Below are positions 1-64,000 of a stretch of DNA of 64,000 nt, in pieces. A program made the position numbers and the translations under genes. The notes below the pieces were generated by a model. It ran no database searches and was not told where the DNA came from. It worked only from the letters and a program-made list of their open reading frames with translations. The first letter of the stretch is position 1. Each line of letters begins with the position of its first letter. Source of the stretch: Antedon mediterranea. Its lineage: Eukaryota > Echinodermata > Crinoidea > Comatulida > Antedonidae. The stretch covers positions 17,793,201 to 17,857,200 of the forward strand of contig NC_092670.1 in NCBI RefSeq assembly GCF_964355755.1, written 5' to 3'.

Positions 1-3000
1 TATTTTTAATCTACCCAGTAATTTTCAAACATTCTGAATATAGCATTTATAAGATACTAAATTAGCTAAATTTTAGCATCATTAAAATTGCATTTCCATG
101 CATCTAGCTAGGTGTTCACATTCTCCAAATTTCTGCTCAGTTAGGGATAATTTTTAAAGCCAACAAACCATGGGTTATTACAGCCCTGGTATTTTTGTCC
201 CGATTTGTTGTGTAATATCCATTAGATTTACCGGAGGGTCACAATAATTGTCCACGATTTATATTCGGGGTCTCTGTAAAAAAGATTGTGCACACAGTAC
301 TAAAGAAAAACACAGTGCCAATTCTGTTTAGTTTTCTATATAATATTTATCTGTGAAAATTGTTGTCATCTGAAACTTAATTTGTTTACTTTAATAACAT
401 TGTCATTAGTACATGTTATGGGTTTTACTGTCTGCTATTGGAATTCCCAATGACAGCCAAATAAAACATTGACTGACTCATTATATTAACTATAGCTTCA
501 CTGTGACAGCTTGTAATTTATACAAAAACATTGCTTGGTTTCACATGTGACGTCATAATAATTGTATTAGACATAGTTCATCAAAAAAGACATAAGGAAG
601 TCGGCTACATATTTGCTTAAAATTCAGATTTACCATACTGTATATATGAATTTATTTTTATGAATGTACAGTCGTCTCCAGTCAAATTCGCGCAAGTCGA
701 AAAATCATTACTGTGTAATTTTTATTTGTAAGTAGAATTTTTTAAAGTAGAAGCTCGTCTACGTCTTTTTAAAATCCAAATACACACATTCTTTAGTGAT
801 TTATATCATATAAGTTGAAATCACAAATCACGCAGCAACAACACGCCAAAAAAGCCAACGAAACGTACATAATTTCGACCATATCGGTTCTCTCAAGCAG
901 GTTGTATAGCATAGGCACTCTTCTTGTATGTACACAGTCTAGTATACAATGCATAAGGAGCTGTCAGCATTGAGCGGCGTTTTGTGGGTACCCATTTTGG
1001 GCTAGACAGAAGACAATAAACAATGGCCAATCAATTAGGCCTAGCATTTTTTTTTACAAATCCGTAAGTCGAATAAATAACGCATTATGCCAGTCCTATT
1101 AGTGTTCTGTGAAAAAGTATCTTAGTTTTGGTTGTTCATGATAAATGATGTGAAATATTATTAGATTAGCCTTCCTTGTGGGATGTATATCTATACTACT
1201 AAGTGTTATGTTTACAGTGTTTTTTAGAAATTAAGTCACTTTTTATACTCCAGTATGTTCCACTTCAAGAAGTGATTATTGCAATAAGATGTGTATAGAT
1301 ATCGGCGATGAAAATATTTTGGTGTATATGGCCACCAAGATAGAATGTGTCTTAAGTTTACTTTCACAGATAGTTACCTATTGAAATGTTTGATATATGA
1401 GGCATGGCACGCTTATAACGAATGTAAAAATATTTGTACACTTAACCACTTAACATGTATTTATCTTGTCCTTGCTAATTTTGTTATTCTTTTACTACCC
1501 AAAAGTGGCGGGTATAAATGGAATGTAATACAGTACATTATAAAAGGAAATACTGAACTCAAGGAATACATAGATAAATATATATTGTACTGTATTGTGC
1601 TTTTTTACAATAACACTGCGTCAGTGTGCAGTGGACTAGATATGACATACAACAACTTTATTTTCCCTAAGGGTCCTTTTGTGAGTACACCAAATAGCAC
1701 CCATTCATCTGTCCATAACTGGGTCTAAAGTGAACACCAATTCCCTCACAGACACGAATATACTATGATATTTATAATTTATTTTACAGCATATTTGCAT
1801 AATAAATGATGAAGGCAAGAAGAAATTTGCTGTTTAAATACAATTACTGATTTCAGCAGACAGCAGGGAAAATAATACTCGTCGTAAAAAGGGTAATTTT
1901 GTTGTAATAGAAACCATTTTGAGTTTTTAACTTAAGGTTGTATTTTAAATTTTATCTTTTTCAAAACATGTAACAAAACAGAAGCAAAATTATATTATAT
2001 TTTTCATAGCAGATTTCTATTTACTTTACACATTTCTTAATTAAGTGATGGTTTTGAAACAAATAAAGTGAATGTTAATAATTTATATACCATATTGGGT
2101 TTTGGTAAAAAGAAACTTAAAATTAACATTCTGCAAGTAAATTAACATAGCAGCATTTACTTTACACATTTCATAATGAAAGTGATGGTTTTGAAACAGA
2201 TAAAATAAAAAAGTGAGTATTAATAGTTTTTGCCATATTGGGTTTTGGTAATTAACTTAAAATTAACTTTCTGAAGTATGTAATATTTGATAATTCAGTG
2301 AATAGACAGGTGTTACTAATAGAATTTATCAGTAATGTCATAAACAAGCTATTTTTAGCCACTGTCACAAGTAAATGTTGGAACAGCAATCTTTGGCACT
2401 GGGTTATTTATATCGCAAAAATTACACCCAAACCTCTTGTTTTACTGAGTTATATTAATACACCAAAACCTGAATATTATCATAAATAATAAATGTTATT
2501 CTTATTTACTGTAGTGATTTGAATAATATTTTCTACCACATTCTGTGTTTTCTACCACGTCTTCTGGTTTCTGTGTATTGATTGAGATCTATCGGCAGAG
2601 TACTTAGCAAGCTGGTAGATTTAAGACTCCTAATCGTCAAATTCTAATATTTAGAGTATAGTACTAAGTGTGTAATATTAAAGTGCTGTAGCTAAACTTA
2701 CATGTATGGGTGTGTGTTTGTTTATTAGTGTGTTGTATGAACCACCAAGGTATAAAGGGTCTTTCACCTCTGTTCCGATGCGGCGACCCTTTAGCAAGTT
2801 AGACATGTACTTACCCGGCAGTAAATATTGTCGTGGTGTGCAGTGGTTTTAAAATAGTTTTTCACATCCAAAAGCTTTATTTTTATTATATCTGTATTTA
2901 AGGTAAAGCAAAGTAAAATATATTCTTCTGTGAAGTAAAAAGTTTTTTAATCGTGAAAAATGTGTTTGTATAACTGTTAGTAAAATAGTTGATAAATTGT

Positions 3001-3479
3001 TGCCTAATTAGATGGTGCTGTCGAAACCATGGTCTAAGCAGGGAGTTGTTAATTTAGTCCCTGGTCTAAATACTTAATTAGTGGTGCCTTATTGGTTGAT
3101 TTATATGTTGCATCCGTTGATCTAGAATTTCATATGAGGAAGTATTTATGTCGGCTTAACTGAACTATTAAAGGTGCATTCTCACAGAAATGAGAAATAA
3201 TAATCCAAAATAAATAGTTTGAATATACCTTTAGGCAGACCGAGAGAGTAATTGTTACCGGCCACTTGCACTAACCAAAATGTCAATATTTACCAAGGGT
3301 CTTTTTCAACACTTTTTCAATGTGTCGTGCCCCCTGATCGTGCCTGCTTTTAGTTCTGAATTTCACTCACACCACATAACAGTATTTTGAACCAAATTCA
3401 GATTTAAATACCCACATTACCGCACATGTTTTGATAAAATATAGTAAATGATTGATTATTTGACAGGGTATGTTGTCTA
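1..3479. other. Gene-free AT-rich stretch
   Basis: No open frame here resembles a known protein or is flanked by convincing splice sites. The longest frame (127 codons from 1345) has no recognisable domain and sits in low-complexity AT-rich sequence. The stretch holds scattered AT-rich tracts and the tandem duplication listed separately at 2017-2279. Confidence 0.6.
2017..2279. repeat. Tandem duplication, two ~130 bp copies
   Basis: Two diverged direct copies run about 2017-2150 and 2151-2279. Shared landmarks are TTTACTTTACACATTTC, GTGATGGTTTTGAAACA, CCATATTGGGTTTTGG and CTTAAAATTAAC, in the same order. The copies differ by small indels and substitutions, so the duplication is not recent. 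No coding content. Confidence 0.8.
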
Positions 3480-4570
3480 GATAAAATATTGTATTGATTG
3501 ATTATATATTGTACTGATTGATAATATGTTGTATTGATTGATAATATTGTTGATTGATAATATACTGTATTGATTGATCATATATTGTTGATTGATAATA
3601 TACTGTATTGATTGATGATATTATTGTTGATTGATAATATACTGTATTGATTGATGATATATTGTTGATTGATAATATACTGTATTGATTGATGATATAT
3701 TGTTGATTGATAATATACTGTATTGATTGATGATGTATTGTTGATTGATAATATACTGTATTGATTGATGATGTATTGTTGGTTGATAATATACTGTATT
3801 GATTGATGGTATATTGTTGATTGATAATATACCGTATTGATTGATGATGTATTGTTGATTGATAATATACTGTATTGATTGATGATATATTGTTGATTGA
3901 TAATATACTGTATTGATTGATGATGTATTGTTGATTGATAATATACTGTATTGATTGATGATGTATTGTTGATTGATAATATACTGTATTGATTGATGGT
4001 ATATTGTTGATTGATAATATACTGTATTGATTGATGATGTATTGTTGATTGATAATATACTGTATTGATTGATGGTATATTGTTGATTGATAATATACTG
4101 TATTGATTGATGGTATATTGTTGATTGATAATATACTGTATTGATTGATGATATATTGTTGATTGATAATATACTGTATTGATTGATGATGTATTGTTGA
4201 TTGATAATATACTGTATTGATTGATGATATATTGTTGATTGATAATATACTGTATTGATTGATGGTATATTGTTGATTGATAATATACTGTATTGATTGA
4301 TGATATATTGTTGATTGATAATATACTGTATTTATTGATGATATATTGTTGATTGATAATATACTGTATTGATTGATGGTATATTGTTGATTGATAATAT
4401 ACTGTATTGATTGATGATGTATTGTTGATTGATAATATACTGTATTGATTGATGGTATATTGTTGATTGATAATATACTGTATTGATTGATGATATATTG
4501 TTGATTGTTGATAAACTATTGATTGATGATAAACTGTATTGATTGATGGTATATTATTGATTGATCATAT
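3480..4570. repeat. Minisatellite, ~38 bp unit, about 27 copies
   Basis: A tandem array whose unit contains TTGATTGATAATATACTG followed by TATTGATTGATGATATATTG. Each unit is itself two related halves built on TTGATTGAT. Variants in the second half (GATATATTG, GATGTATTG, GGTATATTG) are interspersed irregularly, and rare single changes occur (ACCGTATTG near 3829, TATTTATTG near 4328). The edges at 3480-3580 and 4500-4570 are degenerate. It lies between genes. Confidence 0.92.
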
Positions 4571-4915
4571 TCGTTGGTAATATATTGATTACATTAATGA
4601 TTGTATGAAGCATGATGGTTATGATATTGGCATTGGTGTGTGATTCTATCAATTGATTTATCAAAAAACGGTAAATGATTGTTATTATTATTATTATTAT
4701 TATAGTATAGCCATACTGCATGTAAATACAATTTTTATGAAATGTAGCCTAATGTAGTGAAATCAAACATATACAGTGCATACTGTATCCAAAATAATGG
4801 TTTAAGTAATGTTTATTTGATTATAATATGAGGTACAATGAAGAAAGACTAATAAAATCGTCTGAAAAAGTAAAATATTTAATATTAGTAATTATATAAT
4901 ATTATATATTATAAT

Positions 4916-5066
4916 ATGCTTTCCAATAGGCGAATCAAAAAGCGTCAGTATTTATGCGCATGCGTATCCGTAGTTCCATCTACTTTTTACGATGCGAAAT
5001 TAATACAACCAATCAAAGCTGGGAACTGTTGATTTTTCTCGAAGATTCGCCTAATGGAAATCAGTC
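4916..5066. mobile_element. MITE-like inverted repeat (family C, short copy)
   Basis: The ends are inverted copies: TTTCCAATAGGCGAATC on the left and GATTCGCCTAATGGAAA on the right. The same termini bound the 375 bp copy at 60419-60793. The interior has no open frame. This is a deletion derivative or sub-family of a non-autonomous DNA transposon. Confidence 0.65.
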
Positions 5067-6109
5067 TGATCTGATAATTATTGACCCCAGAGTATAGTAC
5101 TCTAGGTATTAATCTTGAAAGCTTTTGATTGGTCGAATCGCTTTTGTCTTAATGAGAAAAAAGTTTTATTTTCCTCGTTTCCTTAAAAAAGAACATTTCA
5201 AATCTATTTTAAAGCTTGTGATTGATTTCTATATAAAGGATGTTGTTTTTGTGACATAAGGGGAATTCCCCTTCACATCCCTATTAGTTTAAGGACATTT
5301 ACTTATGCCCCAGGAATGTACGCACGTATTTATGGTGACTTCAATGACAAACTGATTTAGTGCGTTGTTAATGTTTTACATGACATCACGTATTATTTTA
5401 TAGGCGTATTCACACTAATTATCTGACTATAACGTTGTAAATATGCGTTCACACCTATCACTACTGTATAACTCTTAATTGACTTAGTTATTGTTCCAAA
5501 AGTATGAAAAAAAGGGTGTGGCAAAATTGATATTACGTAATATATTTATTTCAGGTTTATTTTAACACTAATTTATTTGCACTTACTTTCTGTAAAGTCA
5601 CCAGATACTGTATACGTATACTTAAGTTTTTGTGTGCCATATCCCGTTAATTGTTAGAAACCTCAATTACGAACATTAAAAGTAAATTTATCCTAATTTC
5701 CATTAGGCCTAACATGATAAAGCAACTAATTTATACTTATACACAAATTGTACTATTAAAGTTCAATTTTAATGCCACAAATTGGGTAATATTACTACAT
5801 TATTATTTCCGGTATATTAAGATGTATTGTTTTCATTGAACTGGATAAAGATGTTCATAACAGTTTACCATTGCAAGCTGGTTGTTAGGCATGCGTTTCT
5901 GTGACGTAGTTATTGACTACCAGCATATCCGGTTCGTGGAAGTGATTACATTCTTGAACTGAAACCTGGTCATTCATTATTCAAATATAATTATCGAAAT
6001 GTATTAATGCAATTGAAAGCAACAAATTCTATTTATATCCGTTACATCTATTTTTTTTTAAAGTTTCCATTCGTAGCTCTCCATCATCGATATCCCACAG
6101 TGCATCCGA

Positions 6110-7120
6110 TTAAAATGAATCAGTGGATTTCGAACACCCAGACATCTCAACATTATAGGAATCCTCGAACTTCACTTGAAAACACAAACTAAACATTTTA
6201 CCTAAAATGGCTGACACGCCTTTTTTGATATCTGGTAAAGTTTTCCAATAGATGACAGCATTTGCCGAAGCGTTCAGCAAGCCCAAACTGAATGTATAGA
6301 AATAGGCAGCAGTTATTTCGAGACAGCGCTCCTCCTCGGGTAACATTGCGTACTGGGTGACGTAAATACGCAGTGTCTCCACAATCCAGGGCATCCAGCA
6401 GACGGCATCAGCTACCACAAGCGTCGCGTACGCTCTCAACACCAATTTGCTTTTTTCAAACTTCTTCCTTCCTATGGCTGCTTTCATATTTTCTTCGTGC
6501 TTACGAACTTTGAGAAAGATAATAGTGTACAGCACAGCTATGATGTCAACAATGAGAAAACATGCTATCGGGCTTACAGTGTAAGTGACCAGAATGTACG
6601 CGTCACGGTCAACCACTAGAAGAATCGTGAACAGTGCCAGAGGAACCACCCAGAGTGCAACAGAGACGCCGTACAGAATCTTTCTTTCTGTCATTTCGTC
6701 GACAGTCTTCGGAAAGTAGAAAACACGATAGGAGCGATCCAGTGCTATCGCAAGATGACAGCATGACGACGTCAAACAGAGACTGAAGGTCAACATGGAA
6801 CTGACGTCGTCTTCTAAAACGACCCAAATGGTCAAGATTATTCCCATCAGGATGTCCGCAATGCTCAGGTTCAGAATTAAAATATTTCTCGTTTTCGGCA
6901 ACTTGTTCTTCTTATCTCCAGCTTTCTTAAATGTCCTGCCGCCTTTCTTCCAGAATATGGCTCCAGAAACGAGTATATTCCCCACGATAGCAACAAACGC
7001 AGTTACAACAATATAAATTATAAAAACAATTAGGTGTTTTCTGTTATGTAGGTTGAACTCGTAGTTTCCCTTACAACCAGCCATAGTTAATACAGTTCTC
7101 TGCTCTACAGAATCCAACAC
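6110..7120 (-). CDS. Rhodopsin-family (class A) GPCR, orphan
   Basis: This is an intact 336-codon frame for a seven-transmembrane receptor of the plasma membrane. Seen: TM1 with GNILVS (about residues 46-51), TM2 with LNLSIADILMG, a TM3 end reading DRSYR where DRY is usual, TM6 with CWMPW, and TM7 with NAVIY in place of NPxxY. The first intracellular loop is long and very basic. The position 25 residues before the TM3 arginine is Asp, so the usual TM3 cysteine is absent, and extracellular loop 2 is very short. The receptor at 20814-21821 shares these traits, plus a KLVLRAY-type TM6 entry and an IYWxxLPD helix 8. An internal Met (codon 13, position 7084) follows a possible acceptor (TTCTGTAG), so translation may start there. 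The ligand cannot be told from sequence. Confidence 0.85.
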   Translation of the reverse strand: MLDSVEQRTVLTMAGCKGNYEFNLHNRKHLIVFIIYIVVTAFVAIVGNILVSGAIFWKKGGRTFKKAGDKKNKLPKTRNILILNLSIADILMGIILTIWVVLEDDVSSMLTFSLCLTSSCCHLAIALDRSYRVFYFPKTVDEMTERKILYGVSVALWVVPLALFTILLVVDRDAYILVTYTVSPIACFLIVDIIAVLYTIIFLKVRKHEENMKAAIGRKKFEKSKLVLRAYATLVVADAVCWMPWIVETLRIYVTQYAMLPEEERCLEITAAYFYTFSLGLLNASANAVIYWKTLPDIKKGVSAILGKMFSLCFQVKFEDSYNVEMSGCSKSTDSF

Positions 7121-9491
7121 AATGTCTTTGTGAAGGTATAAACTTACATTAACTATCAGGTCATGATTAATATAGATTTAAATTTTTATTAATAAGGAAA
7201 TCGAAATTGAAAACCACAACAATGGTTTCTATTGTTTAAGCATTATTATCGGCACGAAAGAAATACTGTAATTTAATTTGTATTAGAATGTTTAATTATT
7301 GACTGATTTTGTTTGTTTTTCGTTTTGTATAAACAAATGACCCGTTGAAATGACCGTCTCAAACGACGCCGAAGGGTTAGATAGTGGGAAAGGGAAGGGT
7401 GTGTTTGGGGCCTTGTAATATCCTCAGCCATTTTGTGATATAGGCCTACTCTACATTTATGCTTATACTTTTTTTACATATTCCTTTATGTCAGTGTAGT
7501 GAGTTGACATATAACTTTATAGGTCCAAACAGCCCATGCAAAATAGAGATTACTATATAAATGTATTTGACTTGGATTACATCCAGCAATTTGACCACAA
7601 TCATTTTTGTTTCATCTTTTTGTATTGGGTCATCGTTAATTATTTATCTTTACCTTGTTTGTAATTTTGTGTAGGCCTATAATGTGTAGGCCTATATAAA
7701 GTACTCGTTTTTTTTAACGTTTGCAGGCCGCTATTTTATTTGTACGCGCGTTAATGCGTTTCGTTTTATGTCTGGTATTACACCCGTGCCGTTTATTTCT
7801 CCCGTTGAAACGTTTATCATTTTAGGCCTACACGAACACACGTTTCGAAGTGCGTGTAGCTGTTTTTGTGCTACAAGTTTGACACATGCGTAAGCATAAA
7901 TGTACGTAGACTTCCGTTCAGCACAGACCGTACCAAGCAAGCCCAAAGAAATATCTACATCTAAAAAAAACCGGTTCTATAATAAATCATCTTTAACCAT
8001 CCACATACTATGAATATGTAATTCCATGGAGGTATAATTCTGTCTGAATCTACAGGGAAAATTAGGCCATCTTGTTATGTACATACAGCCATCAGTGATT
8101 AATGGCTATGTTACTATTGGCGTTTACTGTGCATACGTCACCTTTTTGAAGAAGCAAGTTACAATTCCATCATTGATGAGTTCAGCATGACAGCGTGTGT
8201 TACGTAGAAACTCGTCGGTGTCTCCAATTCAACGTTATTCAAACGCGCTTGTTACGATTTTGAAATATTTGAATTACTGTATAATTAGCGACAATTATTA
8301 TATAGGCCTATATAGAGATCGCATTTTGTATTTGATATTACTACATCCCAAGCGTCATCTGCTTTTGCAATAACTTCATAAAAACGTAAGTAAGATATGT
8401 ATCATCTACTGTACTTTGTTAGTGTTTGTATATTGTATTCTTCTAAAGATAGGCCTATATTTATTATGAATAAAGATGATGTGTGCGTGTGCGCAGATTT
8501 TTTATTTTTATAAACATCAACATCTAAGGAAATTAGGATTGAAATGCTCCATATCTAGGCCTACTGCAGTGTCAGCGCGCCTACCATGTATAAATTAAGA
8601 TTCTTCATTTGTACATATATATATTCTTCTGATAAAGAAAATAAATAATCTGTGAAATCGTAGACGTGTCATTGCCCCGCCGTCCATTTATCTACAACTT
8701 TTACAATTCCTAAAACTTGGTAGTTCAATTTGTATACAACTTTTATTTTCAGTTGAGTTCATGTTGTGTTTTATGAACGTTTAGGAATGCAGTGATAGGC
8801 CCACAACAGAAGCAATTGAATTCTCTAGGGGCTTTAATTTAAAAAGTGAAGGGTATGCCAGTGCCCAGGTTGCTCGACTTGTTATAATTGTTTCCAGGTG
8901 CAACACAATGGTAATCTATTTGATGCTCCTCACTCGCTTATTAACTGAGGCTATTTCTGTACGTTGTTACTGCCTGTAGGCTTAGCATATACTAACATGC
9001 ATTATACACGGTTATACAAGACTGCTTGATGAACTTTTATCTCCCACTTTCATCTCCTACTCGCTTCCCTGTCACCCCATCACCCTACCCTATCCTAGTC
9101 TAGTTCTACACGGCGATATGACTTATTATTGGTTTTTAAACAGACTTGTGGCATCTACCATACCCAGTATGCCTACATAACATTTATTGTCCCTATCAAA
9201 GGGTATTCCACTTCCCTGTCAGCACAAAAGGGTTAATCTTTTCGTTCAAGTGTGTGCTACTAGGTGAAGCGAGTTTAGGCCTAAAATAAATATTTATAAC
9301 ATGAACGTAAACAAGCCAATCTGATAAGTACAGTATTAACATACGTTAACTAAACCTCCGTTATTTCCTTACGAAAACATATTAATAATTTGTTCAAGCT
9401 TGATTTGGACTTGGATGCAACGCGTTAAACGCACTAGTGAGTTGACCTATCACAGGTGGCAATCTGTATGGTCTATTGCGTCGTGATTGGT
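7121..9491. other. Gene-free stretch between receptor and MITE
   Basis: No supported gene. The 5' non-coding part of the minus-strand receptor gene probably lies in the first few hundred bases. The palindrome TAGGCCTA, or its core AGGCCTA, recurs (near 7443, 7674, 7688, 7825, 8306, 8453 and 8558). Confidence 0.5.
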
Positions 9492-9675
9492 AAAGCTTGG
9501 TTCCCACTAGAACGTAACGCAAGGACGTAAACGCAACGCAAGCGTTTTAACCAATGACAAGCGAACTTATAGACAGTTAGCAATCACAAGCGAATAAGCC
9601 ATCGCTTGTGATTGGTCAATTCACTTGCGTTGCGTTACGTCCTTGTGTTGCATCGCTAGTGGGAACCACGCTTAA
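9492..9675. mobile_element. Palindromic MITE, family B
   Basis: The ends are inverted copies, AGCTTGGTTCCCACTAG on the left and CTAGTGGGAACCACGCT on the right, each flanked by TAA (a 3-bp target duplication). The interior is also self-complementary and carries CCAAT-type sequence (ACCAATGACAAGCGA and CGCTTGTGATTGGT). There is no coding capacity. The TWA target duplication is typical of PIF/Harbinger elements. Other copies are at 13612, 13986, 19899, 23850, 32970 and 44104. Confidence 0.8.
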
Positions 9676-10122
9676 CTCTTGCGGTGCGATTACGTCCTTG
9701 CGTTGCGTTCAAAAAGCAAAACTCCGGGGTTGACGCCCCGATGTTTTGGTGTGAAAGGGGTACAAGAGAAACCAATCGGAATTCAAAGGTGAATGTTCAA
9801 CAAATAAATAAACATTGAATCGGCTGTTGCTGCTGTTTACCTTTTTTCTTCTATTTATTAATGTAGGCCTATTGTTGTTGCTCTTTATTTTAGTCTTTAG
9901 TTTGCCCTTTTACATACATTGTGTTGATCTCAAATTCATCATAGGTATAAATAAGCTGAAATTTTGATGTTGTTTTCGTTGCCATGTCGTCACCATAATG
10001 TATTTTATATTTATAGATACGTAGGCCAGAGATGTTTATTTTGTAGAAAAGTGTAGCCTTTTTAAATAAAAACTGAGATATTAGTGTAGTTTCGAAGATC
10101 GTAGTTTTTAATTGATTTATAT

Positions 10123-18400: not shown

Positions 18401-20801
18401 TTTGACAAATTTTTCGATTTACAAGCGCAATTAAAATTTGACAATCGTCATTTGTATCAGTCACCATGGAAACATGCGTGCCAAACGCTGATACTACTTC
18501 GCGGCGTCGAATATCAATGATGAAGTGAGCTTGCATAAGTATTCATTAATATGGTTACATATTGGCAATTAATCTAAATTCATAACATTCAGTTAAGAAA
18601 GTGCGTATTCAGAAGAATCTATTAAAGTTAGATAAGATAAGATGTAATTAAATTTATTTCCCTTCCTTTCAACAAACTAAACCATCATGCTAAATTTCGA
18701 ATTAAATTTCTGATTAATATCTTTTTTTTGGTCGTATCTTTCAATTACCTTTATACGCAAAAGAAAACCAATTAATTAAACGAGAACCAAGATTTTATTA
18801 TGATGCTTTTACTATAAATGCATCGCAAGTATTGCGTTTGTTTTCATTGTTTTTTTTTTTGCTTCCGTGATATTATGTGAATTAATAATTTGATATGTAA
18901 AGGCATGTTTAAAAATAAAACACTTCTTGAGAATATTATTATTGTTGAATTGAATTGACAACTTTATTTCGGCAACAAAAAATGTGACAAAAGTCTGATC
19001 CCAGGAAAATGACAACAGTTGGTACTGAATAGTGACCATGATAGTTTCACCCCCTCAAAAATAGCCAGTGACATCGGTAGGCCTACTAATGTACCAAACA
19101 GTTTGTACTAAAACAAGTATGTTCGTTGACGATGTCCCACACCTGCGTCACTCTCCATTTATGCTTCGGACACGTACAAAACTTTTTATCTTAAAAGCAA
19201 GATTATTGCAGTGAGATTTCTCTTGATGTGGGTTTATAAAATCTGTGTCAATCCTTCATCATTAATATTTTACTCGTAATTTCTCAAAATGAAGTGTTTT
19301 TGACAGTTACGTCCGGTTTATACATTAAACACCTATCTGTGTGATTTTAAATGATCATGTTATTGTATTCGCGTGGTGTCACTTCCCTAAGGAGATATCA
19401 TTATATCCTAAATTCATTTATAAAAGGAGATTTGTTCTATCGTATTTTCTTAAGTAGAGTACGATATACATTATAAAAAAGTGCGGTGTAAAATGGTCTT
19501 TTGCTCAGGGCGGCGGCGTCTCTGAGAGTCCATCACAACACAGGCCTAATGGATAGATTATGAGACTCTTATCTGCGTTCTTAAATACTTAAGAAAATTG
19601 TCAAACATAGATATAGTCTTGGCATCGTGAATGTCAAATTTAATTGGCTAAATTTTACTTCTGGGCATTGTTTCAAATTTACACTTGGTTTTTCCAAAGG
19701 GTCATTTAAAAATGACCCAGTTTCGGTCAAGCCCTCAAAGGGAGATCAATCACCAGATCTTTGGCCTGAAAGAACAATTAACAAATGATAATGGAAACAA
19801 AATAAATCCACCTGATTGATTTTATTCGATTACAATAGGGATGTTTACTAGTTTAGGTTATAACTTATTTTTCCATGGTTTATGTAACTGAAAAGATTCC
19901 CACTGACTGGAATGAAATTTTGACCAATCACAACGTGATGATCATCAAAGCTGTCGCTTGTGATTGGTCAACTCACTCACTCACTACTTCGTTGTTTTGC
20001 GTCTGTTGTGGGAACAAAGCTTCATTTGAATTATTATCGTAGTATCTGCAGAAATTATTCACAATTTAACTGCCTTGCTATAGAGTACCGCATTTACTTT
20101 TAATATGATAGACAATATATCATTCGTATCCTTAGTAATAAGTATGAGTATAGGTTATACCTTTAAAATAGTATAATCTATTAATAAATAATCGTCTTTA
20201 ATGTCACCGCGTTTCCATAGATATTAATAAACAGTTTTGAAAATTATCGATTACAACAGTTTCAACATTCAATCATTTCATTAAGTTTAGATTACAGTTT
20301 CTTAATCACATTTAGGTAGTATATCACTTTGTTATTTCTTGTGTATACGTAAGCCTAATAAGATTAATTCAAGTTATGACATCCAAGTCTAAAATTTGCA
20401 AGAAAAAAACATTATAACGAATATTAAAAGCAGAGCAGCACAAAAACAACCAATCACAGGCAAGATGTAAGCGTTGTCTTCAAATTGTGTATATTATCTA
20501 TCTCTTACTGAGTGATCAAGACATTACGATGCGCGCACACCGTGTTGGTGGTTGTAGATCGTTCTGCTCTGTATGCCAGCAACCTGCCACATCTTCCATA
20601 CCCACTGAGTATTGTTTTGAGTTCCTCCCAGATATCATTTTGAGGCATTAGTACAGTAGGTGTTTTAAGTTCTAATAGCCTCCGTGACCAGTCAGTAATG
20701 TAACCGTATCCAGACGTTTCTTATATCCGTTAGACAAATATTGTAGATAATATTTGTATACTCGAAATAAATTAAGTACGCTGTATTGCTTTGTCTTTCA
20801 G
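15473..20801. other. Gene-free stretch upstream of the second receptor
   Basis: No supported coding region. It contains a diverged family B fragment at about 16345-16440 (GTCGCTTGTGATGATCC) and a better copy at 19899-20022. Clustered AGGCCTA palindromes occur (17797-17825 holds three). Upstream non-coding exon(s) of the receptor at 20814 should lie somewhere here, but none can be placed from sequence alone. Confidence 0.5.
19899..20022. mobile_element. MITE family B copy
   Basis: Contains TTTTGACCAATCACAACGTG and GTCGCTTGTGATTGGTCAAC, the self-complementary core, and ends TGTGGGAACAAAGCTT, the right terminus. The left end is degenerate (CCCACTGACTGG). Confidence 0.65.
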
Positions 20802-20813
20802 GCTGCCTCTTTG

Positions 20814-21821
20814 ATGGAGTCCTTTGGAAATGAGACAGTGGATGAGTTCAATCCTGATGATTGCGATCTACCCGATATAACAAAAACCAGTTTATATCAG
20901 AACAAAGTGATATTACTCATCTATACAGCTCAACTACTGCTACTCTGCTTCTTCATCATAACTGAAAACTCGATTATCCTTTTTGCCTTCTACAAAGTCA
21001 GGAAACTACGCCAACGAAACAACGTGCTCATATGCAGTCTGTCTCTGACAGACTTCTGCACTGGCATCATATTGCCGATTCAGATGCTAGGCCCCCCAAG
21101 TGTCATCGATGTTATAAGCTTTTCAATGTTTTTTATCTCCGTGTTGACTATACTTTTGATAGCGATAGAACGATTTTATGTCCTGGTTATCATGACGAAA
21201 AGACTTGAACGAGATCAAAATAGAAAGAGCGCGCCGTTAATATGGACATGTGTCGGACTTTGGGTGGGTACATTAGCCCTGTTTGTCCCATGGGCTATGA
21301 AACCATACGTGTACATATTAATACTGTATACCGTTGCACCACTGAGTGTTATTATTGTAATGGTGGGTGTTGTTTGTCTCTACATAGCTATATTTTATTC
21401 TATACATAAGATGGACTTGCAGAAACAAAGTTACATTGGCAAGAAAGACTATCAGCGGACAAAAGTAGTTCTGCGTGCGTATGGTATTATCGTCGTGACG
21501 TTTGTACTTTGTTGGTTTCCATGGAGTTTTGAAGCCCTTCGTATTGGGGTGCAAGTTTACTTAAATGTTGAACCAAACGATCGTCAATGTTACTACGCCA
21601 GTATCACCGCATGTTTTCTTCTTAACATAGGTATATTCAACTCCGCCTTAAATCCCATCATTTACTGGAGAAATCTTCCAGATTTTCGAGAGGCTATCTG
21701 TAGTGTTTTTAGTTGCTGTCCTTGTAAGTGTGTGCAGGAGAAGTCTCTCGTTGACGAAGAGACGTCTTCAAATTTAAGAAACAAGCCAACGTCATTAACA
21801 GATCTACATATGGAGGCCTAG
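20814..21821 (+). CDS. Rhodopsin-family (class A) GPCR, orphan
   Basis: This is a 335-residue seven-transmembrane receptor of the plasma membrane. I chose the ATG at 20814 because a strong 3' splice site (TTGTCTTTCAG, ending 20801) precedes it, so the upstream in-frame ATG at 20754 is intronic. The gene thus has at least one 5' non-coding exon. Seen: an N-glycosylation site NET (residues 6-8), TM2 with LSLTDFCTG, a TM3 end reading ERFYV (an E/DRY variant), TM6 with CWFPW, TM7 with NPIIY, and a cysteine-rich SCCPCKC tail suited to palmitoylation. The TM3 cysteine is absent and extracellular loop 2 is very short, as in melanocortin-type receptors, but no specific ligand class is implied. It is the likely paralogue of the minus-strand receptor at 6.1-7.1 kb; the two are transcribed divergently. 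Confidence 0.9.
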   Translation: MESFGNETVDEFNPDDCDLPDITKTSLYQNKVILLIYTAQLLLLCFFIITENSIILFAFYKVRKLRQRNNVLICSLSLTDFCTGIILPIQMLGPPSVIDVISFSMFFISVLTILLIAIERFYVLVIMTKRLERDQNRKSAPLIWTCVGLWVGTLALFVPWAMKPYVYILILYTVAPLSVIIVMVGVVCLYIAIFYSIHKMDLQKQSYIGKKDYQRTKVVLRAYGIIVVTFVLCWFPWSFEALRIGVQVYLNVEPNDRQCYYASITACFLLNIGIFNSALNPIIYWRNLPDFREAICSVFSCCPCKCVQEKSLVDEETSSNLRNKPTSLTDLHMEA

Positions 21822-38030: not shown

Positions 38031-38948
38031 TTTCAACAAGAACAATACATTATATTGATTAGCTACAACTGATATGATGTTTCGATATTTGTGGTAAACT
38101 AGATTAGAAAAATACTTTATATTACGATTGATTACAACAGCCATTTCTTTATACATTTATTATATCACAGAAAAGTACACACTTAACATAATATACAGTT
38201 TAATTAGAAATGATATGATTATTATATTCTAAGTATTATTCATCAACTTATTATTATTCTAAGTATTAAGTCCTCTATAAAAATATGCTTTGAAATTTCT
38301 ATATTAAATATGTAAACCATACATCCCATGGGGACCTCGTTACGAAATTTGGCAAAAACTAATAGGGTGGGATTATACTAGGATTGCATTAAGAATGGAA
38401 GTGCCAAAGTATTGTGTCTAAATTTATACTAAATTAGGGGTGGGATTACATTTGAGCATAGGATTATATTTGGTCATAATAATATACAGTATAATAACAT
38501 ACAATACAGTATAATAACATTGTAGAACCCTACATTGTTCTATGCTTAGAATGCACCATACATTTAAGTTGACAAAACTTGTGCAGTACCTTACTTTTAA
38601 CTTATTAAAGACAGACAGGCAGTAAACAATTAAATAGTAATTCCAATAATTAATAATAGACAAAAACTATACAGTTAAAACTCCAACAAGGAAACTAGTG
38701 AGATACAAGGAATACATATTATATAGAAAGAATATTAAAATTCAACACTGGACATTGTGTCCATTGTAATGTGTTTGGAAAGACTAATAATTGTAGTGTT
38801 ATATATACTAAAATAATCAATAATTAAATAATTAATTAATTTCATGGCACCAGCCATACATTTAACTAGCCTGGACGAAGTAACATTAAAATAATTGCGT
38901 ATTTGAGAAAACATTATTAAGGTTTACAATTAATTAAACAAATGATGA

Positions 38949-39535
38949 TTGTACAGGCTAGTACTATACAAAGATTGTACAGGCTAGTACTATACAAAGA
39001 TTGTACAGGCTAGTACTATACAAAGACTGTACAGGCTAGTACTATACAAAGATTGTACAGGCTAGTACTATACAAAGATTGTACAGGCTAGTACTATACA
39101 AAGACTGTACAGGCTAGTACTATACAAAGATTGTACAGGCTAGTACTATACAAAGATTGTACAGGCTAGTACTATACAAAGATTGTACAGGCTAGTACTA
39201 TACAAAGATTGTACAGGCTAGTACTATACAAAGATTGTACAGGCTAGTACTATACAAAGATTGTACAGGCTAGTACTATACAAAGACTGTACAGGCTAGT
39301 ACTATACAAAGATTGTACAGGCTAGTACTATACAAAGATTGTACAGGCTAGTACTATACAAAGATTGTACAGGCTAGTACTATACAAAGATTGTACAGGC
39401 TAGTACTATACAAAGATTGTACAGGCTAGTACTATACAAAGATTGTACAGGCTAGTACTATACAAAGATTGTACAGGCTAGTACTATACAAAGATTGTAC
39501 AGGCTAGTACTATACAAAGATTGTACAGGCTAGTG
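38949..39535. repeat. 26 bp satellite, about 22 copies, next to the AVL9 stop codon
   Basis: A highly uniform array with unit GATTGTACAGGCTAGTACTA plus TACAAA. Nearly all copies are identical; the only recurrent change is GATTGT to GACTGT (near 39022, 39100 and 39283). It ends 29 bp past the AVL9 stop (39564-39566 on the minus strand), so it is probably transcribed in the AVL9 3' untranslated region. There are no spacers, so it is not a CRISPR array. Confidence 0.95.
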
Positions 39536-48875: not shown

Positions 48876-56456
<7,581 letters not shown>

Positions 56457-59579: not shown

Positions 59580-62500
59580 ATGTCGAATGTGGATAAATGC
59601 CCATATCCCTCTGTAATAGAACGTTATTTTAGACGAGGTTTTAAACTAGGTAAGCAAAGTGATAAATAATGTATGCCTCTAGCTAAACTAAGCTAGGCCG
59701 GCCCCCTAGTGTTATTATTTATTACTTGTACTCTCGGGCTGGTGTGGTGGTGGTGACCATCTTCATCTTAATCTAGGCCTATAAGTAGTAGTAGTAGTCT
59801 AGGCCTAGCTAGCATCCAGTTAGGCTAGTAAGTAGTGAAACTAGGCCTACTTACTACTGCTATTAATTATAATATAAAGGCTAGGCCTAGAGTGTAACAT
59901 ACAATTTATTTTTACAAAAGATGCCTTCATATAATTAAAAAATAATGTATCAGATATATATATATTAAAATTATTTGTTTGTTTTTTTAAATTATACTAA
60001 ACTATAAGTTCTAGCTAGTCGGCTATATATCAGCCCCGTACTTTTTATGTTTTTTTTGTAACAACAAAGCTTTGATCTCAGATCTGTCTTCTGATTGCTT
60101 TACTGTTTTATTTATTTTTATTGCTGACACCAAATAAAGTAACTGATACTTTTGCGCTCTCAAAGACATTAGTAGTGAATGATGGATGGCAAAATGTAGC
60201 ACAAATTCCAGCACACTTCATGTTTTGGATCTAGCTGTAGAACCTTCGTTGTTACCATGAAATTGATGAATGGACCACAAAACACAAATCATTTTTTTTC
60301 ACAGTAATTCAACTTATGCAAATATAAAGATGTGAATATGTCTCGCTAGGACCCAGAAAAGAGAGAAATTTATTTTTTATTAACAGACGTAATAATACGG
60401 ATGTTAATTAAAATATTAAGCCGATTTTCCATTAGGCGAATTTGTTCGCGCGAGTCCAACGTTTCAAAGAGAAAAAAATCGCCTACTCTCTTTCCACTAC
60501 ATAAGCGAATAGCTGCGACGTTCATGTTCCTCGCGTGGTTGCTGAGCATTTCGATTCGCACGAGTGCTCATGAAAGCGTCATAGCTCATTTCCTGAGCTC
60601 TGATTGGTTGCGCAATATTTCGCTTCGCAAAAAGTAGAAACAATTGGAATTAGTAAATTTCGCTGAAGCAAAAAATCAAAGGAACAAGAATTCGTCGCAG
60701 AAGGGAGTATGACAGACAGAAACTTGAATTAGCATGCGCATAGCATGACGCTTTCAATTCGCGCGAACAAATTCGCCTAGTGGAAAATCGGCTTTAGAAT
60801 TGAGTAAAAGAACATATGAACCATTAAAAGATCACAGTAAGGTCACAACTTGGAAAACTATGTATCATGTCAAACAATAATATTTAGACTTAAGTTTAAA
60901 GGTTAAGTAGGGAATTGGTTTCTTCCAATGACACTCATCCAATCAATGTGATAATAATACCACCTGTATATTGCATGTCACCGTATTTATTTTTCAGATA
61001 TGAAAGGTCCTGAAGAAGATTTTTGTATACTGAAGCATTCAAATAGGTATAATTAATTTATCAATAAATATTTAAATTTAGTTTTTAAAATGGTTTTTGT
61101 TTACATAATGTACTGTACTAATATACCTTCATCTCCCAATAAGCAAACATCTCAGACAATTTGGGTGTCGAGAAAACTAAGATATAGAAGTAATACTAGG
61201 TTTTCTAGATCTAGGAAACTAAGATATTTTCATGATAAGATTGTAGTACCAATTGTATCACAGGGGTAAGATATTTTAAGTGTAAGATTTAAATTCAGCA
61301 AATGGAATTTGTCATTCCATACCATTCTATACATACCTGCAAACAATGGGAAGTTAAAAATAAATCTGTACTCACAAAAAACCTTTGCATCTCCCAGTAG
61401 TGTACACCAAAATAAATAGACCATCAGAAGAACATATTCATGCATATTGCAATTGTTTTTAAAAAACACTTTGATTGATTTTGCTTTTTCTCATTAGAGT
61501 ATGTCTTCTAACACTTGCACCCAGCCACCCAATTGTAAAAAATACAAAAACAGTTAAAAACGTTGATTTTCAAGTATCGTCAAAAATGAATCGTTTAGAC
61601 AATAAAGTATCCGGCAAGTCAAAAAAAGTAAGTTCAAACATTTCATTTTTCAGTTTTGTTAAATATTATTCTTGCCTGTGCCCACCATTTGTTTTCTTTT
61701 TAGCTGTATGTTAATATAATAATAATATCCTGGATTTATTTAGCGCCTAATATTGTGAAACCTCTCTCATTATTACCCCAGTCATTTTTTTTGGATCAAA
61801 CCTGTATGGAAACATACTCCCATAATGCAGCTAGTAATCAGCGCAAAGTTGTGTCTTGATCTAACCGGGTTCCCATTTATACACTTGGGTGGAGAGAGGC
61901 ATACGTAAGTAAAGTATCTTGCCTAAGGATACAAGCAATGCGGAGAGAATTGGATTTGAATCTCGATCTCACGATCAGTAAGGGTTAGGGTTATGAAGGA
62001 ACCCTAACCCCAAACGCCCATATGTTACCAGCTTTCGCCCACTCTACATTCCCTGTGGTCTATCCAACCTTTTCAATATTACCACCAGTGTACACCCCCA
62101 CACTACCCTCATGTATAGGTTTACTGATTGGTACTCTAGTTCCAAAATGTTCTGTCTGGACGCTGTTTATCTATGAACTTAATTGTGACATGGCTTTTGG
62201 CATGTTTTCTGTGACCTCTAAGACCTCTTTATATTCAATGATTTAACATCAATAAATTTAACATATGAATTGTTTTTATAGGCAGAAGGATGTTTTACTT
62301 TTGTTATGAACTTGATAAACATACTTTCGTCTAATGTTCTCATGTTTTCTTCCTTTTTAACAACTTGTAGTCCATACTGGTTATTTTCTAAGAATTTTAA
62401 GAAGAGTTTTAAGAATTCACATTTTATTGAATACTGTGTCAATGACTTAACCCAACATCAGCGTTATGTTGTGTTCCTTCCTGTAATATACCATTTCTAT

Positions 62501-64000
62501 GTTTTTGTTGCAGGTGGGTCAATGTCTTAACCCAACAACAGCGTTATGTTGTGTCACTTCCTGTAATACCATTTCTATGTTTTTATTGCAGGGTGGGGAA
62601 TGGCTTTAACCCAACATCAGTGTTATGTTGCGTCACTTCCTGTAATACCATTTCTATGTTTTTTTTTTGTTGCAGGGGGTGGGGGGTGGCTAATACCCTA
62701 ACCTAACATCAGCGTTTTGTTGTTTCCCTTCCTGTAATACCATTTCTATGTTTTTTGTTGTTGCAGGGGGGGGGGGTGGCTAATACCCTAACCTAACATC
62801 AGCGTTATGTTGTTTCCCTTCCTGTAATACCATTTCTATGTTTTTTGTTGTTGCAGGGGGTGGGGGGTGGCTAATACCCTAACCTAACATCAGCGTTTTG
62901 TTGTTTCCCTTCCTGTAATACCATTTCTATGTTTTTTGTTGTTGCAGGGGGTGGGGGGTGGCTAATACCCTAACCTAACATCAGCGTTTTGTTGTTTCCC
63001 TTTCTGTAATATACCATTTCTATGTTTTTGTTGCAGGTGGGTCAGTGGCTTAACCTAACATCAGCGTTATGTTGTTTCCCTTCCTGTAATATACCATTTC
63101 TATGTTTTTGTTGCAGGGGGGTCAATGGCTTACCTAACTTCAGCGTTATGTTGTGTCCGTTCATGTAATACCATTTCTATGTTTTTGTTGCAGGGGGGTC
63201 AATGGCTTAACCCAACATCAGCGTTATGTTGTTTCCCTTCCTGTAATATACCATTTCTATGTTTTTGTTGCAGGGGGGTCAATGGCTTAACCTAACTTCA
63301 GCGTTATGTTGTGTCCGTTCATGTAATACCATTTCTATGTTTTTGTTGCAGGGGGGTCAATGGCTTAACCCAACATCAGCATTATGTTGCGTCACTTGTG
63401 ATGACGATTCAAACTATACAATGTATAGCTGTATACGAGGAAAGCTAGCAGAGGTCAATGAGAAACTACTCAAAACACCAAATCTTCTCAAAGAAAAGGT
63501 ACAATTATATGAGGATTTGTATTTTACTGTCTTATTTATAATTCTCGCATTCTTAGCATTGTCACTATCTTAAAATTGTTACATTCTTAGCATTGTCACT
63601 TTTTTAGCATTGTCTTAGCGTTATTTTCACTGTCTTAGAATTCTCACATTCTGAGCATTATCACTATCTTAAAATTGTCACATTCTTAGCATTGTCAATT
63701 TTTTAGCATTGTCTTAGCATTATCACTGCCTTAGAATTATTAACAAAATGGTCACAGTCTTAGCCTTGTCACTGTATTAATATTGCCTTTAGTGTTGTCA
63801 CTGTATTATAATAGCACATATTTCCCCTTTTTTTAGTATGACAAGGATGGTTACATTGCTATAATTCTACCAAAGATCTATGAGACAGATGAACAAATGA
63901 AAAGTTTATTAACAGAAGAACAATATAATGAGGCCATTGTGAGTAGAGGACTGAGGACGGCCGAGGACATGCCAGTTGAACAGAAGGGAGGTACAGAGAA
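59580..64000 (+). CDS. ABITRAM: ABITRAM (Simiate/FAM206A) homologue, partial at right edge
   Basis: ABITRAM is an actin-binding protein of nuclear speckles and dendritic filopodia that also affects transcription. Exons: 59580-59649, 60998-61046, 61498-61627, 63352-63498 and 63837 onward (cut by the window end); all joins keep frame. Matches to the vertebrate protein: [13 protein letters not shown] (10-22), [21 protein letters not shown] (about 31-51), [43 protein letters not shown] and [12 protein letters not shown]. The frame continues past where human ABITRAM (181 aa) ends, so this protein has a longer C-terminus. Intron 3 ends in a tandem array of eleven acceptor-like sites (see 62438-63399). 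The acceptor at 63351 was chosen because it is the only one whose downstream sequence continues into the conserved YSCIRGKL segment without running through repeat copies. Confidence 0.93.
60419..60793. mobile_element. MITE family C, 375 bp, with TTA duplication, ABITRAM intron 1
   Basis: AGCCGATTTTCCATTAGGCG with AATTTGTTCGCGCGA is repeated inverted at the right (TCGCGCGAACAAATTCGCCT, AGTGGAAAATCGGCT), about 35 bp each. TTA flanks both sides (60416-60418, 60794-60796). The interior contains further inverted pieces (GAGCTCTGATTGGTTGCGC). PIF/Harbinger-like by target duplication. Confidence 0.85.
61730..61985. repeat. Interspersed repeat family E, copy 2 (ABITRAM intron 3)
   Basis: Shares CATTATTACCCCAGTCATTT, CTGTATGGAAACATACTCCC, AAAGTATCTTGCCTAAGGAT and GCAATGCGGAGAG with 35335-35608 in the same order. 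It is followed by a small inverted motif (AGGGTTAGGGTT... AACCCTAACCCC, 61980-62011). Confidence 0.7.
62438..63399 (+). repeat. Tandem array of 3' splice sites with exon 4 start (ABITRAM)
   Basis: About twelve units of 75-91 bp. Each unit has, in order, GTCAATGGCTTAACCCAACA, TCAGCGTTATGTTGTGTC, CTTCCTGTAATACCATTTCT and ATGTTTTTGTTGCAG. Acceptor-like AG ends are at 62513, 62591, 62675, 62766, 62856, 62947, 63036, 63116, 63193, 63273 and 63351. The last one starts real exon 4 (63352), and the first ~48 nt of that exon are the repeat's exon-like part. Units 3-6 carry a G-run expansion (GGGGGTGGGGGGTGGC). The step from 63273 to 63351 is 78 nt and its frame is open. Other steps are not multiples of three. 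Confidence 0.92.
63548..63760. repeat. Tandem repeat of ~100 bp in ABITRAM intron 4
   Basis: CATTCTTAGCATTGTCACTA, TCTTAAAATTGTTACATTCT and TTTTTTAGCATTGTCTTAGC repeat with slight changes about 100 bp later. Internally they are built from an ~18-bp TTAGCATTGTCA-like motif. Confidence 0.75.

Follow-up and report, generated by a model that had tools for sequence, protein, structure and literature searches.

How does a transcript choose among 3' splice sites when eleven near-identical acceptors face one donor? The locus described here, in a 64,000-nucleotide stretch of Antedon mediterranea DNA (the window), amounts to the classic experiment of duplicating a splice site, carried out by nature. 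Acceptor usage at this locus would reveal what part position, exon length and local RNA structure play in selecting a 3' splice site where local sequence does not settle the matter.

A minisatellite across the intron 3/exon 4 boundary

With its flanks read from the assembly, the host gene consists of five exons separated by GT-AG introns and encodes a protein of 216 residues when the last acceptor is used. In the exon 4/5 region the protein has a match to Pfam GCV_H (E = 1.1e-6), along with weak matches to GcvH chains in the PDB. The name ABITRAM (FAM206A/Simiate), which we take from a similarity to the human protein, would make it a GcvH-like single protein of the ABITRAM type, a tentative assignment. 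Each exon has one match in the genome, besides weak matches to the array copies themselves. The features are listed below in window numbering; a slash marks a splice junction.

59580-59649, plus strand: coding exon 1, joined in frame to exons 2-5
60998-61046, plus strand: coding exon 2 of the in-frame gene model
61498-61627, plus strand: coding exon 3, donor AAA/GTAAGT, phase 0
61628-63351, plus strand: intron 3, 1724 nt to the last acceptor and 886 nt to the first
62512-62513, plus strand: decoy acceptor 1, frameshift, stop; CAG/GTGGGT, with a donor-like site at 62514
62590-62591, plus strand: decoy acceptor 2, frameshift, stop
62674-62675, plus strand: decoy acceptor 3, frameshift, stop; starts the 91-bp unit family
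62765-62766, plus strand: decoy acceptor 4, in register, stop at codon 10
62855-62856, plus strand: decoy acceptor 5, in register, stop at codon 6
62946-62947, plus strand: decoy acceptor 6, frameshift, stop
63035-63036, plus strand: decoy acceptor 7, in register, stop at codon 44; CAG/GTGGGT, with a donor-like site at 63037
63115-63116, plus strand: decoy acceptor 8, frameshift, stop
63192-63193, plus strand: decoy acceptor 9, frameshift, stop; twin of the presumed acceptor
63272-63273, plus strand: decoy acceptor 10, in frame, open, 26 residues added
63350-63351, plus strand: last and presumably used acceptor, with a weak predicted local hairpin (-10.9 kcal/mol)
63352-63498, plus strand: exon 4, 147 nt, peptide ending LLKEK, donor AAG/GTACAA
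63837-64000 and past the window edge, plus strand: exon 5, stop codon ending at 64091

Tandem Repeats Finder (TRF) places a minisatellite at 62438-63389 on the plus strand, with 11.4 copies, a period of 80 and a score of 998. Its units measure 77-91 bp, including a 91-bp subfamily, and a repeat search of the window recovers 12 exon-like segments in register across the array, the first of which (at 62438) is without an acceptor. Alignment of the units shows that each combines about 46 nt from the start of exon 4 with about 32 nt from the end of intron 3, the latter half reading CCTGTAATACCATTTCTATGTTTTTGTTGCAG. The anatomy proposed in the sequence-only reading, namely a unit that holds a pyrimidine tract, the AG and the exon start, is correct. 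The copies lie head-to-tail and each crosses the exon-intron boundary, which makes the array a junction-spanning minisatellite. Further, a full acceptor (tract, AG and exon start) is repeated upstream of an intact exon 4, as in the duplicated 3' splice site of human CBS 844ins68. The exon-like half has the same end point in every unit, and exon nucleotides 48-147 and the GTACAA donor are absent from all of them; because of this, whole exons have not been duplicated, and an origin by whole-exon duplication or a set of mutually exclusive exons was rejected.

Junction-crossing minisatellites are already known, and the array adds to them a longer example on the acceptor side; the similar human cases are smaller or mirror-image. 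In CBS 844ins68 a 68-bp segment across a 3' splice site is tandemly duplicated and creates competing acceptors, according to the relevant passages of PMC2630376 and PMC1334203. The corresponding passage of PMC2630376 calls the site a "donor", but the paper cited there (Romano 2002) names a 3' splice site in its title. CBS 844ins68 has two acceptors rather than eleven and belongs to another gene and animal. The 31-bp VNTR of the same human gene, c.1444_1467+7(16_21), is also a polymorphic minisatellite that crosses an exon/intron boundary with a splice-site region in each copy (PMC2630376); unlike the array, it has a unit of 31 bp and lies on the donor side, reaching from the exon to +7. The human FAM20C VNTR is likewise described as spanning a junction (PMC5941971), the likeness being at that level. 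Internal tandem repeats at exon-intron boundaries of duplicated human genes can alter introns and splicing, with 27 intron modifications recorded, but these are mostly described as creating new introns within repeated exons, whereas the array multiplies the intron end itself (PMC2812944).

Intron 4, 338 nt long, has its own repeat. Just downstream of exon 4, positions 63536-63738 consist largely of a 17-bp minisatellite (TTCTTAGCATTGTCACT), in which TTTTTTAG/TTCTTAG acceptor-like motifs recur ahead of the real acceptor at 63836.

Reading frames behind the acceptors

The array contains eleven TTGCAG acceptors, the G of each AG being the second coordinate of its line above, spaced in order by 78, 84, 91, 90, 91, 89, 80, 77, 80 and 78 nt. 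This count bears out the earlier claim of ten decoys ahead of the presumed acceptor. It had also been proposed that the acceptor at 63273, 78 nt upstream of the last, is in frame and free of stops, and it does lengthen the protein by exactly 26 residues. The further statement that the other copies shift the frame stands for 62513, 62591, 62675, 62947, 63116 and 63193 and fails for 62766, 62856 and 63036, which are offset from the last acceptor by 585, 495 and 315 nt, all multiples of three, and stay in register but run into stops. Read from acceptor to exon 4 donor, 63273 is the only decoy that gives another open product, and the other nine reach stops. The possibility that the array is kept as a coding exon was discarded, as it has stops in all frames.

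Choice among the acceptors

A weaker local sequence at the decoys was ruled out as the basis of choice by the unit alignment and by comparison of 63193 with 63351, which are identical over 62 nt upstream (intron) and 29 nt downstream (exon). Because the two match over these 91 nt, local sequence alone cannot pick the last site. Every acceptor comes with a pyrimidine tract of its own, and the 49-54 nt ahead of it, which are free of AG, contain a branch-point-like UGUAAU. According to PMC1431707, splicing uses the first suitable AG beyond the branch point and, since every acceptor here has its own branch-point-like site, this rule implies that the choice is made at first recognition. Selection would thus take place when U2AF and U2 initially bind, and not at a later stage by scanning for the next AG. 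NAGNAG tandem acceptors also present competing AGs before one exon; these, however, lie 3 nt apart and are resolved in the second splicing step, whereas neighbouring array sites are separated by 77-91 nt and share neither tract nor branch-point-like site.

The acceptors do differ in the exon that each would define. From the last one exon 4 is 147 nt long, and from the decoys it would be 225, 305, 382 and so on up to 985 nt, so that the last acceptor is most likely favoured because it yields by far the shortest exon, set between two introns that exceed 300 nt. Every other choice except 63273 would, moreover, bring in stops. CBS 844ins68 offers a precedent, since the passages of PMC2630376 that describe it report that the distal site is strongly favoured and the product mostly normal, the other transcript being found in traces only (PMC1334203). 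From exon length by position and from this precedent, we infer that 63351 should dominate. Human data indicate that proximity rules depend on exon or intron definition, and that proximity across the exon counts when both flanking introns are long; among exon-defined pairs of 3' sites of similar strength, however, the upstream preference was merely reduced and no clear downstream preference emerged, and for this reason the last site cannot be taken for granted as the dominant one (PMC9225289).

Taken together, these considerations lead us to regard the array as most probably a recent and near-neutral minisatellite growth across the junction, in which 63351 dominates by virtue of the shortest exon, much as in CBS 844ins68. 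A segment of about 32 nt of intron and 46 nt of exon, crossing the intron 3/exon 4 junction, would have been tandemly duplicated, and unequal exchange or slippage could then have expanded it to eleven copies. Use of the upstream acceptors would amount to low-level noise, with most of the resulting transcripts destroyed. However many whole units are gained or lost, the intact exon would still follow directly on the last acceptor, and turnover might therefore proceed with little harm. As every copy has a complete acceptor and the last always abuts an intact exon, the gene is left unbroken; the array thus shows that a minisatellite can grow over an exon boundary without breaking its gene. Variable sites are fewer in the acceptor half of the unit (3 of 31) than in the exon-like half (10 of 31), a difference that might point to constraint but falls short of significance (Fisher p = 0.059, with copies that are not independent), and conservation of the acceptor half was accordingly rejected as a sign of selection.

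A rather unlikely alternative is that the unit masks its own acceptors by folding. In the proposed hairpin an arm CCCUUCCUGUAAU, made of the end of the exon-like half and the branch-point region, would pair with AUUGCAGGGGG, which holds the AG and the exon G-run; nine of the ten decoys would be occluded in this way, and the last acceptor, which bears the arm variant CCGUUCAUG, would stay more open and hence be chosen. Several predictions are consistent with this. The predicted fold of the array RNA is more stable than that of any of 20 shuffles (z -4.56). The local folding energy is -12.3 to -23.1 kcal/mol at nine decoys versus -10.9 at 63351 and its twin 63193, so that for nine of the ten decoys the predicted hairpin exceeds that of the presumed acceptor in stability; at these nine the branch-point region and the AG fall within one predicted hairpin, an arm of which is broken by variants at 63351 and 63193. 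Eight decoys have local folding z-scores of -2.5 to -4.0, and the scores of 63351, 63193 and 62591 are about -0.4 to -0.7; set against 198 acceptor-like control sites, six decoys are at the extreme. Of the eleven AGs, that of 63351 has the highest predicted exposure in the shortest and longest of three window sizes, tying with 63193 in the shortest. Exposure estimates depend on window size, however, and in the middle window 62856 is predicted to be more exposed than 63351. The acceptor of exon 2 in the same gene is also predicted to be paired. Two of the eleven sites are of the weak type, and the chance that the last would be one of them is about 0.18. The twin at 63193 is equally open locally and yet would shift the frame. 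Finally, the arms hardly vary between units, and a search for covariation gave the hairpin no support. We therefore treat this structural lead as a testable idea rather than a result.

The sequence-only reading had suggested that the array could act as a variable regulator of ABITRAM output. Some splicing to decoys would lead to stops and mRNA decay, array length would tune the amount of protein, and 63273 would supply the longer isoform. The stops behind every decoy but 63273 fit this proposal, as does the length variation that recent turnover makes likely. In addition, human tandem repeats at exon-intron boundaries can yield alternative splicing (PMC2812944), and the FAM20C junction VNTR has been indicated to affect splicing (PMC5941971). 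The closest precedent, CBS 844ins68, is however nearly silent, and we consider a regulatory role unlikely. Less likely again is a combination of this role with the predicted folding, a self-silencing cluster in which the unit would fold the decoys shut and leave the final site open, so that variants and array length set the amounts of functional mRNA and of the isoform longer by 26 residues.

Two of the eleven units carry CAG/GTGGGT, in which the acceptor is fused to a donor-like sequence resembling CAG/GTAAGT (7 of 9 consensus matches), the arrangement looked for in recursive splice sites. Intron 3 might then be removed stepwise, or the 89 nt at 62948-63036, for example, included as a poison cassette, and the sites at 62514 and 63037 are the only ones in 62430-63500 that have at least 7 of 9 matches to the donor consensus. 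Against this, GTGGGT is without the A at +4, shifts in the length of the G-run readily create CAG/GTGGGT by chance, and known recursive splice sites occur mainly in very long introns, while intron 3 is short (1.7 kb). Recursive or cassette splicing is for these reasons very doubtful. Least probable of all is an assembly artefact hiding a true locus with one or few acceptors: near-identical 157-bp blocks could come from a misjoin, but the heterogeneity of the units (two length families, distinct variants) and the position of the array inside a 41-Mb contig, where it is found once, argue against a simple artefact, the copy number being that of the assembly.

Turnover and genomic setting

Units 3 and 5 show no difference along 91 nt, and a 157-bp block of two units is repeated with a handful of differences, both far beyond chance. 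Turnover of the array has thus been recent, which makes length polymorphism likely. A genome search found both the array and the gene to be single-copy in the 354-Mb assembly; a dispersed repeat or a second gene copy was dismissed on this result, and the same single assembly yielded no second allele of the array.

Minisatellites are common in this genome: 174 kb of sampled sequence contained 19 arrays with four or more copies. Of these 19, only the main array and that of intron 4 have several acceptor-like motifs on the transcribed strand. Because the genome is so rich in such arrays, it is to be expected that one of them would lie on an exon boundary somewhere.

Other repeats were seen in the window and the genome samples. 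The window holds a 38-bp minisatellite at 3480-4570 (28.7 copies, 94% matches), the minus strand of which is open for more than 330 codons, and a 26-bp minisatellite at 38947-39534 (22.6 copies, 98% matches). At 9.0 Mb on contig C10, a 10-kb sample consists entirely (1-9990) of an 88-bp satellite in 115 copies, and another sampled stretch carries a 392-bp satellite at its positions 5180-10000. Elsewhere in the window are two rhodopsin-family receptor reading frames (6113-7177, minus strand; 20751-21818, plus strand) and an ARF-family gene with at least two exons (52174-53779, plus strand).
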